Source of the DNA: Chitinophaga sp.
GTDB lineage: Bacteria; Bacteroidota; Bacteroidia; Chitinophagales; Chitinophagaceae
Assembly (NCBI RefSeq): GCF_019236475.1
Contig: NZ_JAFAIX010000009.1
Span: 310,001-374,000, forward strand
Direction: 5' to 3'
DNA: 64,000 nt
Made by a program: the position numbers and the translations under genes. Numbering within the stretch: position 1 is the first letter of the stretch; the number at the start of each line of letters is the position of its first letter. This document shows positions 18,601 to 49,299 of this stretch, one piece after another. Under the pieces are notes generated by a model, which saw only the letters and a list, made by a program, of their open reading frames with translations, searched no databases and had not been told where the DNA came from.

Positions 18601-19021
18601 GATTTGAGAATTTTGATTCATGGCGCAAAGATGAGCAATTCTCATGGTTAAATTTTAACTCTGTATTAACAAATTGTTAAGAGCCTTGCTGAAAATTGAA
18701 AGGGGCTAAAAAAAATTTGAAGCTTTTTATTAAAAGAATTATTCGTAGGACATTTACCAAATATTTCTGCTAAAATTTCGCGGCTGTCAAATTTACCTTA
18801 TTGTTAATAACTGGAATCGCTGTAAACACTGAACCTTTAGCGGTTTAGTTTGTTTCGGGCAACTTATTTTAAGTCAGTAAAATATATGTTAATTTAATAG
18901 TGCGTAATTAACATAGCTGCAACATAATTTTAACAGAGAAACCGAGATCACATGGTCCAGTTTTCCATGTTTAATTGTCGTAACTTTGCGCCATTCAATT
19001 ATTACTTCGAAGAACTATTTT
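18601..19021. other. Divergent control region between the Oar-like receptor and ribBA
   Basis: About 420 bases without a gene, strongly AT-rich. On the minus strand, TTTG (18673-18670), a 19-base spacer and TAACCATG (18650-18643) could be the receptor promoter, but the -7 box has two mismatches. On the plus strand a good -7 box precedes ribBA. No FMN riboswitch core was found. Confidence 0.5.
18981..18988 (+). promoter_or_regulatory. -7 element of the ribBA promoter
   Basis: TAACTTTG matches TAnnTTTG exactly and lies 33 bases before the ATG at 19022. The -33 region is poor (TTTT at 18961-18964). Its position supports the ATG over an in-frame TTG at 18986. Confidence 0.55.
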
Positions 19022-20224
19022 ATGTTAGATACAATAGAAGCTGCAATAGAAGATATAAAAAACGGAAAGCTGGTAATTGTAGTGGACGATGAGGACCGCG
19101 AAAATGAGGGAGATTTCATCACTGCTGCCCGCAACGTTACTCCTGAAATCATCAACTTTATGAGCATCCATGGCCGCGGCCTCATTTGCGCTCCCCTCGT
19201 GGAAGAACGCTGTGAAGAACTCGGCCTCGAATTGATGGTAAGGGACAATACTGCTCTTCATCAAACACCCTTTACCGTTTCTGTAGACTTGCTCGGACAT
19301 GGTTGCACCACCGGTATCTCTGCACACGACAGGGCTAAAACCATTCAAGCCCTGATCGATCCGGCCACCAAACCGGAAGATCTTGGTAAACCAGGTCATA
19401 TCTTCCCCCTGAAAGCTAGATCAGGTGGCGTACTCCGCCGCTCAGGTCATACCGAAGCTGCTATCGACCTAGCCCGCCTCGCAGGTTTTGAGCCCGCAGG
19501 CGTACTCGTGGAAATCATGAATGAAGATGGCACCATGGCCCGACTTCCTGAACTCCGCGAAATCGCTACCAAGTTCGATATGAAACTGATCTCCATTAAA
19601 GATCTGATCTCTTACCTCCTCAACCAGGAAACCCTGATTGAAGAAGGCGTTAGCGTTCAAATGCCTACCAAATACGGCAACTTCGAACTGATCGCCTTCA
19701 AACAGGTGAACACCGGCGAAATCCATATGGCGCTGAAAAAAGGGGAATGGGAAAAAGGTGAACCCGTACTGGTACGCGTACACTCTTCCTGTGTAACCGG
19801 CGATATCCTGCACTCTCTGCGCTGCGACTGTGGTGAGCAATTAGCTGCTGCCATGAAAATGGTGGAGAAAGAAGGAAAAGGACTGATCCTGTACATGAAC
19901 CAGGAAGGACGTGGCATCGGCCTCATGAATAAACTGAAAGCATACAAACTCCAGGAAGAAGGCCGCGATACCGTAGAAGCCAATCTGGAACTTGGTTTCA
20001 AAATGGATGAACGCGATTATGGCGTAGGGGCACAAATCCTTCGTCATCTGAATATCTGCAAACTGCGCCTTATTACCAATAACCCGCGCAAACGCGCTGG
20101 CTTGCTAGGTTATGGACTGGAAATAGTGGAAAACGTTCCTATTGAAATTCATCCGAATCCGCATAACGAGAATTATCTCCGTACTAAAAGAGATAAACTC
20201 GGACATGAAATCCTGAAAGGATAA
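19022..20224 (+). CDS. ribBA: Bifunctional 3,4-dihydroxy-2-butanone-4-phosphate synthase / GTP cyclohydrolase II
   Basis: A 400-residue fusion that supplies both starting branches of riboflavin synthesis. The N-terminal half (1-200) has the RibB signature [10 protein letters not shown] (22-31), [10 protein letters not shown] (95-104) and the SGHTEA loop (141-146). The C-terminal half has the RibA zinc ligands C257, C268 and C270 in HSSCVTGD and LRCDCGEQ, then NQEGRGIGL (293-301) and a final segment ending HEILKG. All visible catalytic positions are present. The start is the ATG at 19022, just downstream of a consensus -7 box. A hairpin follows the gene. No riboswitch was seen, so control by FMN is not evident. 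Confidence 0.97.
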
Positions 20225-20248: not shown

Positions 20249-20284
20249 AAAGGGAATGACGTCTGCGACGTCATTCCCTTTTTG
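20249..20284 (+). terminator. Terminator of ribBA
   Basis: AAAGGGAATGACGTC (20249-20263) pairs with GACGTCATTCCCTTT around a 3-base TGC loop, then a T-run. The apex TGACGTC-TGC-GACGTCA belongs to the motif shared with terminators at 3526 and 40975. Confidence 0.92.
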
Positions 20285-20289
20285 TTTTC

Positions 20290-20318
20290 GTCGCCCCTGC
20301 CCGCCGGGCAGGGGCGAC
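20290..20318. repeat. Perfect GC-rich palindrome with 3-base loop
   Basis: GTCGCCCCTGCCC and GGGCAGGGGCGAC are perfect reverse complements separated by GCC. It directly abuts and overlaps the first unit of the 79-bp tandem array. Confidence 0.9.
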
Positions 20319-20487
20319 AGCCGGGAGAATTTTGCTTTGCGCGAATTGCCACCGCAGGAAATGCGATTATGTTGAATCGACTTTAGGACTGGGTGACAGC
20401 CGGGAGAATTTTGCTTTGCGCGAATTGCCACCGCAGGAAATGCGATTATGTTGAATCGATTCTAGGACTGGGTGACAGCCGGGAGAT
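20316..20487. repeat. 79-bp tandem repeat array (two units plus a partial third)
   Basis: Units start at 20316, 20395 and 20474, each beginning GACAGCCGGGAGA. The first two differ only by a couple of bases near their ends (CGACTTTAGG against CGATTCTAGG); the third breaks off after about 13 bases. The array lies between ribBA and the convergent TamB-like gene. No transposase or attachment site is linked. Confidence 0.9.
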
Positions 20488-20501
20488 TTTTACTTGTATT
20501 A

Positions 20502-23500
20502 TTATTGATCAGAAGACTTCTTCGTGCTATCTGGTGGAGGCACCAGTTTTATGCCGCTACTATCTACTATATGATGGCGGGTACTATCCGGCCGTGGCTT
20601 AGCGCGTAAGGCCTTGTTGCGATTGAATAACTCCAGGAACCGGTCATACTCTCTCACGTAGGAAATACCCAAACCTGATTTCGTACGGTTGTTCAGGTTA
20701 TATACGTCGTAATCAGATTTACTGAAGGCATTGATACGGAAACGACCATCCGGCGTCAGTAGGTATTCGATGCGGAAGTCGCCTGCAAAACGGTTGGAGC
20801 TAGCAGAGGTAGCTGTTTTACCCCAGTCGTAATCTCCACCTGCATACAGTCGGAAGCGGTTATTAAATAAGGTACTGGTGACACCGGCACTTACCTGGTT
20901 ACGATCTACAGAGGAATTATCCGGTAATCCGCCTACGTTATAAGCGCGATAGTTTACATTGATGCCTATACCGCTTCCTTTGAGCAAGGCGCCGGTTATA
21001 TTATTAAGGATAGCAGATGCCTGTGCGGAAATCGCTTGTCCCACGCTGTTTTTACCAGTGATGCCCACATTGGCGCCACCACCGGCATCATCCGGCAGGA
21101 ATTGGTTGGCGATGAGCAATCCGTATATCTGTAAGAGGGCTTTGTTCTGGTCGTTGTTGATTTCTTTCAGTTTAGCTGCTACGCCGCTCTCATAAGACAT
21201 GGTGCCTACTTCGGGGAGTTCAATGGAATAGGTGATGTCTGGTTTCATGAGGGCGCCGCGCAGGTTGATCAATACATCCACTTTCTCCTGACGGGTAGCG
21301 AGTTTGTCGTTCGCAGCGAGGGTGGCTGCCTGACCTACCAGGTTGTACAAGCTCACTTTAGGGAGTGAGTACTTGGCGGTGATATTCATCTTGGCTTCAC
21401 GGGGATCTCCATTCCAACTGATGCTACTGTTTTTCTCAATGTCAAATTTCCAGCTAGTAACACGTTGGAAGGTGAAGTTATAGGAACCATTACTGATTTC
21501 ATAGTTGCCGAACATATTGAAATCACCGTCTGTATTAGCAATGATTTGCAGATTACCCGTTCCGTTGGCGGAAATGATGTCTCCCGTTGTAGCATCCAAA
21601 ATCACATCAATCTGTGCATCCGGATTGGCGGCGATGTCTAGCTTTACGGTTAGTTTGGTATTGTCTTTCTTTTTCTTGTTTTCTTTTATCTCTGTACCGT
21701 ATGTTTTGAAAGTAATGTAATCATACTTGCCAATGTCTTTACTGTCGGATATTGGGAGATAGAAATGTGTTCCGCGGATCGGTCTTGCTAATACGTGCAA
21801 CTGTAAATCATTCAGCGGCCCGGAGAAATAAACCTTTCCATCAGCGATGACATCCCCGTAAAATAGGTCATTATCATGCGCCGTGGTATTAAGGAAAAGG
21901 AATTTACGACCCGTTACATCAAAGTCGAAATTGAGTTTATCGAAGTGATCATGGCTGATATAGCCGTTGGCGGTCCCTTTTGTGTTGTATTTATCAATAA
22001 CAGTGAAGCTACCGAATTCAATCAGGTTGTCGTCTACATTCACATTCAGCTTAGGTATCCGATAACGGGTACCCAGGTAATCTACGGTAACGCCTACGGT
22101 GTCAAGCGCCAGTTTACCCACCACAGATGGTAGATCAGTGGTTCCTGAAATATTCAGGCTACCAGATACGGAGCCGGTAAGATCATGTACATAACCCGCC
22201 AGGTATTTATTGAGTAGATTGATATTAGCGCCACCCAGGTTGATAACGGCGTCTAGCCCTTTGTCACTTTTGGAAGTGCCCACACGGCCTTGGGCCATGA
22301 AGTTCATACCTGTATTATCCGACTGTACAGAGAAATTTACCACGCCGGTATGTTGCAGATAGCTACCCTCGAAGGTTACCAATCCTATGGAATCGTTGTC
22401 TATCCGCAAATCTCGGGTACGCAGCGAAGTATTGATATCTAGGTTTTGGGTAGGATCAGATATATTAATAGTACCATCGGTGACACCTTCAATCCGCGTA
22501 GCTACCAGTTGACTAGGTATCACATCTGCGAGGTTCAGGTTTTTCAAGGTGATGATAAACCTGGATTCATCCGGATTGAATTCGTTTGTTTCTACTGTGA
22601 TGCTTTGATCGTTGCGGGTAACACGCAGATTTTTCACTGTCAGGAAATGCTTACTCCAGTAAATCTCATTACCTGGCGTTACATTCCATTGGCGTTCATT
22701 CACGGTAAAGGCACTATTGAGGAAATTCACCTTTATGCCTTCCTGTACGGTGACGACACGGGCATAGAAGCCATCCAAGCTACTGGTGTCTTCAGCCTGC
22801 ATATCCATTTTGATGTAAGAAGTATCATTGGAGGAAGAGGCTAGAATCAATGGGTTTTGTAAAACGACATTGCTTCCATTCAGTACCTTACCTACGGTAC
22901 TGCTTAGATTCACCTTGTGGGCATTACCATCCCCTTTGATTTGTAAGTCCTGTAGATGATATCCCATGATGCTGGCTTCTGGTACTTGTACGTTTAAGGC
23001 CAGGTTGCCGGAAGTGGTATTGAGAGAGCCTTCCACTGTGGAATTATCGAAACCGGTTACGGCGGTGGTAAATCCTTTGATGAGTTTGGCAATGTTGCCA
23101 AACTGGAAATGGAATTGGAAGTCTTCCTGGATTTTACTGTTCACCGGCGCTTTGAAATAGCTAGGGTAGTAGCGGTACAACAGGAATTGGAAGGCATCTG
23201 GCAGTTCGAGGAAGCTGTATTTCCCTTTTACATATCCATCCACTTCACTACCATTGATCAGAAGGGTTTTCTGATCTACATCGGTATGTGCGCTGATAGC
23301 GAGGGAGTCAAATTCTAGGCGACTTTTATCTTTAAACACAGAAACGTCGTACATCCTGGCCACCCCTTCGAAGTTATCGATATTGCTACCGGCGAAGTTC
23401 AAGTCCAGTTTGGCTTGCAGGGTAATAGAATCATTTACCAGGTGTAGCGCTTTCAGGTCACTTTTCCGGATTTCAGAATTGAATTTAAAAACGGGGAGTT

Positions 23501-25331
23501 TCTCGTTAAAGTCGATTGTCCCGGAGAAGTCCATATCCAGGTTAGGATCGTTGGCGGTGAGGGCGCCATTAAAGAATTTCCGGTTCATTTCTCCTTTGGT
23601 GCGGATATTCTGGTATTTGTAACCGTAGAGGGAAATACTCTGTACATCTGCATCCAAGGAAGCTTTGAGGGTTTTGAAGTTAAACCCGGCCCCGTTTACG
23701 CGGGCATTCAAGGTCGCTTCTTGGAGGTCGGGGATATTGAGCAGGCTACCCAGGTCGAAATTATTTGTAGTCAGACTACCGGAGTATACCGGTACATCGC
23801 GGTTGGTTTTAAAGTTCAAGTCGGACGTCACCTGGCCGAGGTTCGTTTGGAACTGGCCATAGGCCACGAAGTCGTTGATGAAACCTGTATAGCTTCCTTT
23901 AAATCGGATATTCGTGAGTCGGTCTATGCGTACATTGGCGGTTACATCTTTCACGAGGGGCATGATCTGCATAACATCCGTGCCGGTGGTCACCAGGTCG
24001 TCTGTATGGAAATCGATGAATGTTTCATTGATGTCTGGCAATCCGCGCATTTCCAGGGAGCCTTTGAGGCGAGTGGTATTGCCGGCTTCCAGTTCTACAT
24101 CGGAAGCTTTTAGGTTGCTGACAGGGCCACGGGCGTTTCCGTTGATGGTAATTTCCTTTTTCCAAGAGGAGAGCGGAGGCGCGAAGTAGGCGATATCATC
24201 TGAGGAAACTTTACAGTTCTTGAAATTGGCCCGCATGTATACCAGGTCGATATAATCGCTCATATCGTCGAAGTCACTGTACTGCATGGTATAGTAATCA
24301 CCGATATGGCTACGATTGGTCTCGAGGTCCAGGTGGGAAAACTCCATTTCCACGGGCGACATTTTAAACCTACTGGTCAGTTTTTTCACCTCAAAGCCAC
24401 AGCGTTCGCGGGTGGTGAGGGAAAGGTCGCCGATGATACTGTCTTTGAAGATACTGGTATTAGTGAGTGACAGGTTAATATCTCCGAAGCGGATATGATG
24501 GGGTGCAAAATAGCCATCTTCGATTTTCGTAGTGTCTTCCGGGTTATCCACGCCGAATAATCCGTTTTTGATTGTGAGTTCTTTTACCAGCAGTTTCCAG
24601 TTGGCGCCGTTCCAGCGAAGCTGGGTGCTATCGTAGGTTACAGGCGTATTGGCTCTAGGCCGTTTTTTACGGAGTGGGGAAGAGCTATAGCTACTGAGGA
24701 TAAAGCTGGGTTGGTCCAGGGAAATTTCCTGGATATCGACATTATGTTTTTTCAGGTCCAGACTTTTGGCATCCAGGTAAATACGTTTGGCATAGCCGCG
24801 CATATCTTCGCCGACCCATTGATCTATTTGATTGATGCGGATGTTGCGCAGGTCGATTTTTTTGAGATCTAGGGAGATGCCGGTATTCTGTTTGGGTGTT
24901 TTACTTGGAGCAGAGCCGAACGCATCCGAAATAAAAGCATAGTTCCATACGGAGTCGTTGCGGGGACGGAGCAAGTTTACTTGTGCATTTTCCAGTCCTA
25001 TGAATTTGATAACAGGTTTATCCTGGAAGAAGAACCAGTCTGTAATCCTTAACTGTAGCTTGCCGGCATAGATGAGCGTGTCTTTATGCTGATCTTCAAT
25101 GAGCGCGCCTTCTAGATCCAGGCTGTTGAATAGCCGGATATTCACATGTTTGATTTCCACCCTTGTATTCAATTGTTCGGACAATCTGTTGGTAGCCTCA
25201 TGTACCAGGAAGTTCTGGACAAAAGGAATGTTTACCAATACTCCGATCAAAATGATGAGGCCTAACAAACACAGTAGAATCACCGATAATATTTTCCGTA
25301 TTTTTTTCAGGCGGCTAAGTTTATCCGGCAA
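20502..25331 (-). CDS. TamB-like translocation and assembly module protein (DUF490)
   Basis: A 1609-residue protein with an N-terminal membrane anchor (about 12-34) and a long run of beta-strand repeats, the AsmA/TamB layout that forms a hydrophobic groove across the periplasm. The conserved C-terminal domain is visible in GNYEISNGSYNF, the DKLATRQEKVDVLINLRG segment and YSIELPEVG. TamB proteins act in outer-membrane protein assembly or in phospholipid transport to the outer membrane. The C-terminal tail contains RNKALRAKPRPDSTRH and further Pro/Ser residues beyond the usual end. Length is typical of the large Bacteroidota forms. It is divergent from the isoaspartyl peptidase gene. Confidence 0.9.
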   Translation of the reverse strand: MPDKLSRLKKIRKILSVILLCLLGLIILIGVLVNIPFVQNFLVHEATNRLSEQLNTRVEIKHVNIRLFNSLDLEGALIEDQHKDTLIYAGKLQLRITDWFFFQDKPVIKFIGLENAQVNLLRPRNDSVWNYAFISDAFGSAPSKTPKQNTGISLDLKKIDLRNIRINQIDQWVGEDMRGYAKRIYLDAKSLDLKKHNVDIQEISLDQPSFILSSYSSSPLRKKRPRANTPVTYDSTQLRWNGANWKLLVKELTIKNGLFGVDNPEDTTKIEDGYFAPHHIRFGDINLSLTNTSIFKDSIIGDLSLTTRERCGFEVKKLTSRFKMSPVEMEFSHLDLETNRSHIGDYYTMQYSDFDDMSDYIDLVYMRANFKNCKVSSDDIAYFAPPLSSWKKEITINGNARGPVSNLKASDVELEAGNTTRLKGSLEMRGLPDINETFIDFHTDDLVTTGTDVMQIMPLVKDVTANVRIDRLTNIRFKGSYTGFINDFVAYGQFQTNLGQVTSDLNFKTNRDVPVYSGSLTTNNFDLGSLLNIPDLQEATLNARVNGAGFNFKTLKASLDADVQSISLYGYKYQNIRTKGEMNRKFFNGALTANDPNLDMDFSGTIDFNEKLPVFKFNSEIRKSDLKALHLVNDSITLQAKLDLNFAGSNIDNFEGVARMYDVSVFKDKSRLEFDSLAISAHTDVDQKTLLINGSEVDGYVKGKYSFLELPDAFQFLLYRYYPSYFKAPVNSKIQEDFQFHFQFGNIAKLIKGFTTAVTGFDNSTVEGSLNTTSGNLALNVQVPEASIMGYHLQDLQIKGDGNAHKVNLSSTVGKVLNGSNVVLQNPLILASSSNDTSYIKMDMQAEDTSSLDGFYARVVTVQEGIKVNFLNSAFTVNERQWNVTPGNEIYWSKHFLTVKNLRVTRNDQSITVETNEFNPDESRFIITLKNLNLADVIPSQLVATRIEGVTDGTINISDPTQNLDINTSLRTRDLRIDNDSIGLVTFEGSYLQHTGVVNFSVQSDNTGMNFMAQGRVGTSKSDKGLDAVINLGGANINLLNKYLAGYVHDLTGSVSGSLNISGTTDLPSVVGKLALDTVGVTVDYLGTRYRIPKLNVNVDDNLIEFGSFTVIDKYNTKGTANGYISHDHFDKLNFDFDVTGRKFLFLNTTAHDNDLFYGDVIADGKVYFSGPLNDLQLHVLARPIRGTHFYLPISDSKDIGKYDYITFKTYGTEIKENKKKKDNTKLTVKLDIAANPDAQIDVILDATTGDIISANGTGNLQIIANTDGDFNMFGNYEISNGSYNFTFQRVTSWKFDIEKNSSISWNGDPREAKMNITAKYSLPKVSLYNLVGQAATLAANDKLATRQEKVDVLINLRGALMKPDITYSIELPEVGTMSYESGVAAKLKEINNDQNKALLQIYGLLIANQFLPDDAGGGANVGITGKNSVGQAISAQASAILNNITGALLKGSGIGINVNYRAYNVGGLPDNSSVDRNQVSAGVTSTLFNNRFRLYAGGDYDWGKTATSASSNRFAGDFRIEYLLTPDGRFRINAFSKSDYDVYNLNNRTKSGLGISYVREYDRFLELFNRNKALRAKPRPDSTRHHIVDSSGIKLVPPPDSTKKSSDQ

Positions 25332-48042: not shown

Positions 48043-49299
48043 CTATTTATTTTTGTCTATTAGTGACTTTAAATCTTTTATCTTTTGCGCAAAATAAGCG
48101 TTTTTGTTGGGATTAAGCAAACTTAATTTTTGATATATCTGTATGGCATTCTGGTACTGATGCTGACGTACCCAAATTTCTGCCAATGTTTCAGATACAA
48201 TGTCTGTATCCACCTTAATAGAATCCAAAGCCATTTTCTCTACTGTTTCAGAGATTTCAGGCTCTTCGGTCTCTTCATACAGGCGGTGCAGTTGTTGCTG
48301 ATACCAATCTTTGCTGGTTCTGCCAGCGAAATTATCCTTCATCTGGCGTAGCCAGGAGGTAAAACTCTTCATTTCGGCTTCTCGCTGCACACTCAGTTCA
48401 TCAGCATGTTCCGGATCTTTCAAGCGTTTATATGCAAAATAATCATCTGTGAATAGTGGCTGAAATACTAATTCTGTTGCTTCTTCTGTCGGAATTTCCA
48501 ATGGAAATATTTTTATCGGCTCGGAAGACGCTTCTTCGGCTTCCGGCACTGCTGTTGTTTCAAAATTGTTTATGTCTGCTTGTGGCGGCGCAGCACTACT
48601 CACCTCTGGCTCATCCTCAGCAACAGGCGATGGTTCCGTTGCAACCGGCTCCTCTGCTGCTGCTAAGTGTACAGAAGGATCCAGTATGGCCATGTCTTCC
48701 GTTACTTCTTCCTCTACTGCCTGATCTACTACTTCCGCTGCTGGTAATTGAACAGTAGGGTTCAAGATGTCAAGGTCATGCTTCACTTCTTCCTCCACTG
48801 CCTGATCTACTACTTCTGCTGCTGATAATTGAACAGTAGGGTTCAAGATGTCAAGGTCCTGCGATACTTCCGCTTCATCATGCTGAATGGTTGTTGACTG
48901 TGTATTCAGTACGGAAGGCTCATGGATAATGGCCTCCGTGAAGGCGGTGGGCACTGCAGGTATATCGGCTTCGGTGTTTGCAGGAGCAGGGGGTGTGTGA
49001 ATAGCTTCCGGAAGCGTATCCGTAGGAATAACCCGCGCAATACGTTCTTCTACTGGCATTAATACCGCTTCGGTAGTAACGAACTGGTAGAAATGATGGG
49101 CCTGATGGCTGTAGATGCTACCGGTTTTGACAGTAGGACTATTTAAATCCTCATGGCGACTATAATCTTTCTTTGCCATAAGCACGCGAGCGGTTGCAAA
49201 GTAAGGATATTCCGTCACCAGCTTTTTTAAAGCGGCTTCATCTACCTGGTGAAGATCAGGTACATGGAAGATATGCTCAATAATCCTGTTTGGTGTCAT
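48043..49299 (-). CDS. TPR-like protein with an internal acidic repeat
   Basis: A 418-residue cytoplasmic protein. The conserved N-terminus (1-90) starts MTPNRIIEHIFHVPDLHQVD; the C-terminus (about 345-418) forms a TPR-like helical pair, LAEIWVRQHQYQNAIQIYQKLSLLNP. Between lies an acidic, Pro/Ala-rich linker holding about three 27-residue repeats with the core DILNPTVQL and AAEVVDQAVEEEV. Such proteins sit between lptE and secG in many Bacteroidota; the function is unknown. The repeat is also visible as an 81-bp DNA repeat. Confidence 0.8.
   Translation of the reverse strand: MTPNRIIEHIFHVPDLHQVDEAALKKLVTEYPYFATARVLMAKKDYSRHEDLNSPTVKTGSIYSHQAHHFYQFVTTEAVLMPVEERIARVIPTDTLPEAIHTPPAPANTEADIPAVPTAFTEAIIHEPSVLNTQSTTIQHDEAEVSQDLDILNPTVQLSAAEVVDQAVEEEVKHDLDILNPTVQLPAAEVVDQAVEEEVTEDMAILDPSVHLAAAEEPVATEPSPVAEDEPEVSSAAPPQADINNFETTAVPEAEEASSEPIKIFPLEIPTEEATELVFQPLFTDDYFAYKRLKDPEHADELSVQREAEMKSFTSWLRQMKDNFAGRTSKDWYQQQLHRLYEETEEPEISETVEKMALDSIKVDTDIVSETLAEIWVRQHQYQNAIQIYQKLSLLNPNKNAYFAQKIKDLKSLIDKNK
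48675..48870 (-). repeat. 81-bp coding tandem repeat inside the TPR-like gene
   Basis: CTGATCTACTACTTC begins near-identical units at 48721 and 48802, exactly 81 bases apart; a more diverged unit lies before them. The unit codes for 27 residues and keeps the frame. Confidence 0.85.

Follow-up and report, generated by a model that had tools for sequence, protein, structure and literature searches.

Intrinsic terminators are usually regarded as unrelated sequences that merely fold alike. SPRITE, a dispersed short repeat of the pneumococcus, resembles a long terminator, with an 18-bp duplex, a T-rich tract and AAAA/TTTT ends (PMC3049150). Its 30 copies are over-represented between convergent genes and near gene 3' ends, its density is lower in the close relative S. 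mitis, and it is hardly present elsewhere; 63% of its insertions lie on the leading strand, a share said to mirror the coding bias (PMC3049150). According to work cited in the same paper, the DNA uptake sequences of Neisseria also sit in terminators (PMC3049150). Furthermore, template switching during replication is reported to create and keep perfect stems and to invert loops (PMC8794818), and a strand bias is reported for it in E. coli (PMC7202029).

Here, we describe a family of intergenic hairpins from a Chitinophaga sp. genome, starting from one gap in the 64,000-nucleotide stretch of DNA that was analysed (hereafter, the window). A search of the literature found no description of such repeats in Chitinophaga. 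We consider it likely that the focal site belongs to a dispersed, clade-specific family of intergenic double-hairpin elements, of which the first hairpin (hp1) is terminator-like, while the tandem arrays found at some copies are local duplications.

Results

The Focal Gap Contains Two Hairpins and a Tandem Array

The features of the focal gap are listed in Table 1. An earlier reading of the window, made from its letters without database searches (the sequence-only reading), had described a perfect palindrome with a 13-bp stem between convergent genes, followed directly by two nearly identical 79-bp units and a broken third; all of this was borne out. The palindrome, hp2, has arms at 20290-20303 and 20305-20318 (14 nt each, 100% complementary, 1 nt between them) and folds as 13 bp with a triloop (-29.1 kcal/mol). 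The array as a whole (20312-20495) has a period of 79, 2.3 copies and 95% matches, and the sequence GCCGGGAGA occurs three times in the window, always at this array, against 0.31 occurrences expected. The GACAG said to be common to the end of the right arm and to the repeat units is real, although it straddles the palindrome edge (20316-20320). As had also been noted, the repeat is open in several frames; the ORFs span 34-69 aa, and nothing in them points to coding.

Table 1. Features of the focal intergenic gap and its flanking genes (positions in the window)
Feature	Position	Strand	Match or remark
ribBA (DHBP synthase + GTP cyclohydrolase II), left convergent gene	18986-20224	+	PF00926, PF00925
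hp1, perfect 15-bp hairpin, core GACGTC-TGC-GACGTC	20249-20281	+	hp1 covariance model match C6:330249-330281
hp2, perfect 13-bp palindrome with triloop, GTCGCCCCTGCCC-GCC-GGGCAGGGGCGAC	20290-20318	+	
Tail motif GACAGCCGGGAGAATTTT, first copy	20316-20333	+	family consensus GACAGnCAGGAGAnTTTT
Tandem unit 1, 79 bp (hp2 right arm + tail + 53-bp locus-specific spacer)	20312-20390	+	
Tandem unit 2, 96% identical to unit 1	20391-20469	+	
Tandem unit 3, stops after the tail motif, 26-nt stub	20470-20495	+	
tamB-like gene, right convergent gene	20502-25331	-	PF04357

The sequence-only reading had passed over hp1, which lies just upstream of hp2, carries a conserved core and turned out to be the principal component of the family. 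The focal hp1 folds at -22.7 kcal/mol, and its T-ended stem is followed by TTGTTTT on the + strand, the only strand on which this copy has a good U-tract. No Rfam family matched above its gathering score within the 64-kb window. Elsewhere in the window, at 48653-48870, there is another tandem repeat (81 bp, 2.7 copies); its period is a multiple of three, so it possibly lies inside a coding frame.

hp1 Forms a Dispersed Family of Terminator-Like Hairpins

The genome comprises 6.48 Mb in 14 contigs, about 70% of which was seen through searches alone. The hp1 survey covered contig C3 (1.41 Mb, an unbiased sample) and stretches around other sites, 1.96 Mb in total, and several tallies throughout the analysis were made by eye. 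At least 114 hp1 sites were found in this sample, with stems of 15-29 bp, free of mismatches in 89 of the 114. When up to three mismatches were allowed, the hp1 core gave 224 strand matches in the genome versus 16 for a reversed-pattern control, most sites being counted twice among the 224 since the core is near-palindromic. Contig C3 alone holds 22 sites, which scales to about 100 for the genome; our estimate of the total is ~110-130 copies in 6.5 Mb.

Genes around these sites were called by a simple codon-score method, so that single calls may be wrong, and with them 66 of the 114 sites fell between convergent genes, 46 between co-directional genes and one between divergent genes, one stayed unassigned, and none lay within a gene. 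In C3, the convergent share was 15 of 22 sites compared with 118 of 621 gaps overall. The sequence-only reading had raised the idea that copies might be confined to convergent sites, which the 46 co-directional gaps contradict.

Outer pairs 7-18 are Watson-Crick in 99% of cases versus 51% after shuffling the 3' arms among copies (113 copies, ungapped alignment). Most outer positions show each of the four pair types, and the six core pairs are nearly constant; some single copies with an altered core (GATGTC/GACATC) still pair as a hairpin. G-U pairs are almost absent from hp1 stems, compared with 3.7-5.7% in the other best hairpins of C3 gaps. Such scarcity would be expected if both RNA strands must pair, because a G-U pair on one strand is A-C on the opposite one. 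U-tracts flank the hairpin on both strands in 89 of the 114 copies, on one strand in 18 and on neither in seven. It is also important to note that 51% of the other convergent-gap hairpins in C3 have perfect stems, and perfection by itself is therefore not special to hp1.

hp2, the Tail Motif and the Tandem Arrays

The hp2 family counts 85 exact CCCTGCCCNNNGGGCAGGG sites in the genome. A common order of modules among copies is hp1, a T-run, hp2 and the tail (GACAGnCAGGAGAnTTTT), with hp2 and the tail on one side in most copies of the element. A further motif, CTGTATCAAAAA, is present in 28 copies versus none for the control and often adjoins hp1; some of the copies that it borders have an inverted TTTTGATACAG on the far side. 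It may be an old terminal repeat or a part of the terminator. A MITE with GCTGTATCAAAA ends was considered and not favoured, these ends being found at many copies and seldom as a pair.

When the full 217-bp focal stretch was searched against the 6.48-Mb genome, it matched a single place. Its first ~50 bases (hp2 and the tail) matched dozens of places, and the other copies aligned to the first 55 of the 217 query bases at most. Accordingly, the 79-bp unit, for which the sequence-only reading had proposed a genome-wide search, is unique to the focal locus, the very outcome that it had named as contrary to its proposal. Other copies have in common with the unit only its first ~26 bp (hp2 right arm and tail), and the genome search gave no second match to the 53-bp spacer. 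Arrays with a period of at least 25 accompany 17 of 114 elements versus 8 of 450 control gaps (TRF, 350-bp flanks, raw counts), and one of these eight control gaps is itself hp2-like. The array units at family sites mostly contain the tail motif, with spacers and lengths that differ by locus, and the arrays at C4:114864 and C3:1403213 are missing from the corresponding gaps of C. dinghuensis. Taken together, tail-containing units that differ by locus and array-free gaps in C. dinghuensis indicate that the 79-bp array arose by local duplication, with hp2 and the tail as its anchor. A long array of the tail-motif type, with at least five units of 45 bp (GACAGCCAGGAGCGTTTT), was seen at C12:238427-238670. 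The best reading is that hp2 with its tail forms an accessory repeat, dispersed and liable to tandem duplications that differ by locus, the 79-bp array being one case; replication slippage or template switching at hp2 would give rise to such arrays.

Loop Polarity Follows Replication

Leading and lagging strands were assigned from contig-level GC skew and from the origin on C3, local skew in short windows being too noisy for single sites. A region around 638.5 kb of C3 (634686-638700) combines three parS-like sites, a DnaA-box cluster and the cumulative-skew minimum and is likely the replication origin; dnaA lies at C3:1,367 kb, ~730 kb away from it. The hp1 loop reads GCA (or a close variant) on the leading strand at 98 of 113 sites, with a binomial p of about 4e-16 that is indicative, since the sites are not fully independent and the skew of the short contigs C4, C5 and C12 is weak. 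C3 taken alone gives 19 of 21 (Fisher p 3e-4). The hp2 loops likewise follow replication, 55 versus 8, and do so at all 16 sites of C3. In co-directional gaps with lagging genes, the hp1 loop follows replication in nine cases versus three. Loop polarity thus tracks replication more than transcription.

When blocks were named after the loop that prevails in them, which is partly circular, the loop was reversed in none of the 66 elements with hp2 on the usual side; where hp2 lies on the other side, the loop followed replication in 12 of 19 elements, or 12 of 24 with skew-assigned strands. Loop polarity is therefore partly independent of element direction. A general loop bias of all hairpins was rejected, since the other intergenic hairpins of C3 show no polarity (60 versus 75). 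The focal site belongs to the minority: both its loop and its hp2 point against the rest of contig C6. At one pair of orthologous hp1 sites, C3:321984 and L280, the loops of the two species are opposite (ACA versus TGC), making it a candidate for loop inversion. It is tempting to suppose that replication sets loop polarity in place, both hairpins having GCA/ANC loops on the leading strand whichever way transcription and, in part, the element itself run. These terminators would then act as DNA hairpins with a polarity linked to replication, either because loops invert with a strand bias or because a single-stranded hairpin is recognised; we put this forward with considerable reserve.

Distribution and Comparison with C. 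dinghuensis

Of 71 other same-genus genomes, 70 lack the exact hp1 core, the exception being C. dinghuensis with eight; it is also missing from all 48 genomes of the order that were searched. The hp1 covariance model gave 74 strand matches in C. dinghuensis and, among 43 same-genus relatives, was strong only there, with one or two stray matches in seven others; the composite hp1-hp2 pattern was recovered only from C. dinghuensis and as six single matches in unrelated genomes. The absence of the core from 70 of 71 genomes and the restriction of strong model matches to C. dinghuensis rule out an element widespread in the genus.

Eight orthologous hp1 pairs, in gaps whose flanking proteins are mostly 85-99% identical, were compared between the two species. 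One of them is identical over 20 pairs. Across the eight, 37 base pairs had changed on both arms and were still paired, five had changed on one arm and one otherwise. At L282 and L285, hp1-like hairpins of C. dinghuensis correspond to an ordinary terminator in the focal genome, and at L283 the C. dinghuensis hp1 stands against a hairpin with another core. Inheritance of the outer stem from an older terminator that received the core was also considered, and in the few comparisons between the two species no inherited stem was obvious.

In C. dinghuensis, a single ordinary terminator (AAGGAGGGGCCGTGTCG...CGACACGGCCCCTCCTT) occupies the focal gap, from which both hp2 and the repeat are missing, and most of the more distant species looked at have an unrelated hairpin there. 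These orthologous gaps give the strongest support for hp1 as the terminator of its gap, and for either a gain of the stretch with hp2 and the repeat here or its loss in C. dinghuensis. Downstream of ribBA in two other Chitinophaga species (L305 and L307), we observed inverted-repeat elements that have AACAAAACACCCATC arms and sequence of the GGATTAAAGGATT type; another palindrome family apparently occupies this position there.

Discussion

Judging from its stable hairpin, the U-tract that follows and its position just downstream of genes, hp1 is probably a mostly bidirectional Rho-independent (intrinsic) terminator. The focal copy, with its U-tract on the ribBA side, would chiefly terminate ribBA, and hp2, which precedes hp1 in the opposite transcript, may serve as an extra 3'-end hairpin. 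Selection for termination on both strands would preserve the perfect stems, probably with the aid of template switching from one arm to the other. Terminator selection alone is insufficient, given the conserved 15-bp core with a variable outer stem and the loop polarity.

The sequence-only reading had suggested that hairpin and repeat form one mobile or extragenic element. Its extragenic half stood: the hairpin and the start of the repeat are parts of one dispersed element found almost only downstream of genes, mostly convergent ones. Its mobile half gained no support, as neither a Y1/RAYT transposase nor a phage or plasmid homologue was found. A non-autonomous mobile element of the MITE or REP/BIME type, served by a transposase in trans and resembling a terminator in looks only, is a possible but rather unlikely account. 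A dispersed, species-restricted and composite family fits it, as do the CTGTATCAAAAA borders of many copies with the occasional inverted TTTTGATACAG opposite, the presence of hp2 in a focal gap whose orthologue lacks it, and the orientation of the hp2 side with replication in 66 of 85 elements, as expected for insertion linked to single-stranded DNA. However, the Y1 transposase domain (PF01797) has no match in the genome while matching in five control genomes, no phage or plasmid homologue was matched, no copies lie in genes, and CTGTATCAAAAA-like ends are paired within 3 kb at just two places in C3. By eye, the focal and other orthologous gaps show no clear target-site duplication, flanking T-runs blurring the junction. 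The outer stem, moreover, differs between copies and is thus not simply carried by one mobile sequence. Far less probable still, to the point of being hardly credible, is that the 79-bp repeat stands apart from the hairpins, as a minisatellite or coding repeat in its own right. The absence of its spacer elsewhere in the genome agrees with such a reading, but sequence of the hp2 right arm and tail opens the unit, most other array-bearing family sites are anchored alike, and the short ORFs bear no coding sign.

The paired multi-base changes in orthologous hairpins (37 versus 5), the leading-strand polarity of hp1 (98/113) and hp2 (55/63) loops and the anchoring of tandem arrays on hp2 are also what one would look for if template switching during replication mainly maintains and polarises the hairpins, correcting stems to perfect palindromes and inverting loops with a strand bias, while stalled forks leave the 79-bp array behind incidentally. 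It leaves the conserved core unaccounted for, and since other C3 intergenic hairpins have no loop polarity, a general mutational bias is not enough; we entertain template switching as the main agent only tentatively. In another reading, the hp1 core would be a binding site for a polarity-using cellular protein (in replication, segregation or DNA uptake), placed in terminators as tolerant positions. The 15-bp core kept among varying flanks and the leading-strand polarity of hp1 loops speak for such a site, and the uptake sequences in Neisseria terminators offer a precedent. Yet ~110-130 copies per 6.5 Mb are few, the exact core is absent from nearly all other same-genus genomes, and the pairing kept despite the change to GATGTC/GACATC favours structure over a fixed duplex site, which makes a protein site improbable. 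A terminator family with an accessory hp2-tail repeat remains our preferred interpretation.

The family brings together ~100 terminator-like hairpins with a common tip, perfect stems despite stem turnover between two close species, and replication-dependent loop polarity. Such a natural data set may help to decide between selection and template switching as the process that preserves perfect hairpins. The family would also account for a class of minisatellites, each specific to its locus, as stutter at a single dispersed hairpin.

Comparison with Known Systems

Like ordinary intrinsic terminators, hp1 has a GC stem, a short loop, a U-tract and a position just downstream of genes, and in orthologous gaps ordinary terminators fill the same place. 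Ordinary terminators, in contrast, have no common 15-bp tip over ~100 unrelated genes, and in this genome loop polarity with replication is lacking in the others. The uptake sequences of Neisseria also place a shared sequence, in inverted form, in many terminators, in far more copies than hp1.

With REP/BIME elements (PMC2817692), the family shares extragenic palindromes in ~100 copies, two of them often close together. Unlike REP/BIME with RAYT (PMC2817692), the focal genome has no Y1 transposase match, and the RAYT/REP identity was rejected on this negative search. Where REP has GTAG/GTRG 5' of the palindrome, hp2 here starts mostly with GTCG/GTTG, as counted by eye; GTAG is found at the hp2 start in some C. 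dinghuensis copies.

Overall, the closest functional analogue of the hp1 family appears to be SPRITE, as far as a comparison by description allows: both have a long terminator-like duplex, AAAA/TTTT ends and enrichment in convergent gaps. The hp1 family differs in belonging to another phylum, in its number (at least 114 copies versus 30), in its conserved core with a variable outer stem, and in its second hairpin module and local tandem arrays. Finally, the loops of hp1 are polarised with replication in 87% of cases, compared with the 63% of SPRITE insertions on the leading strand.
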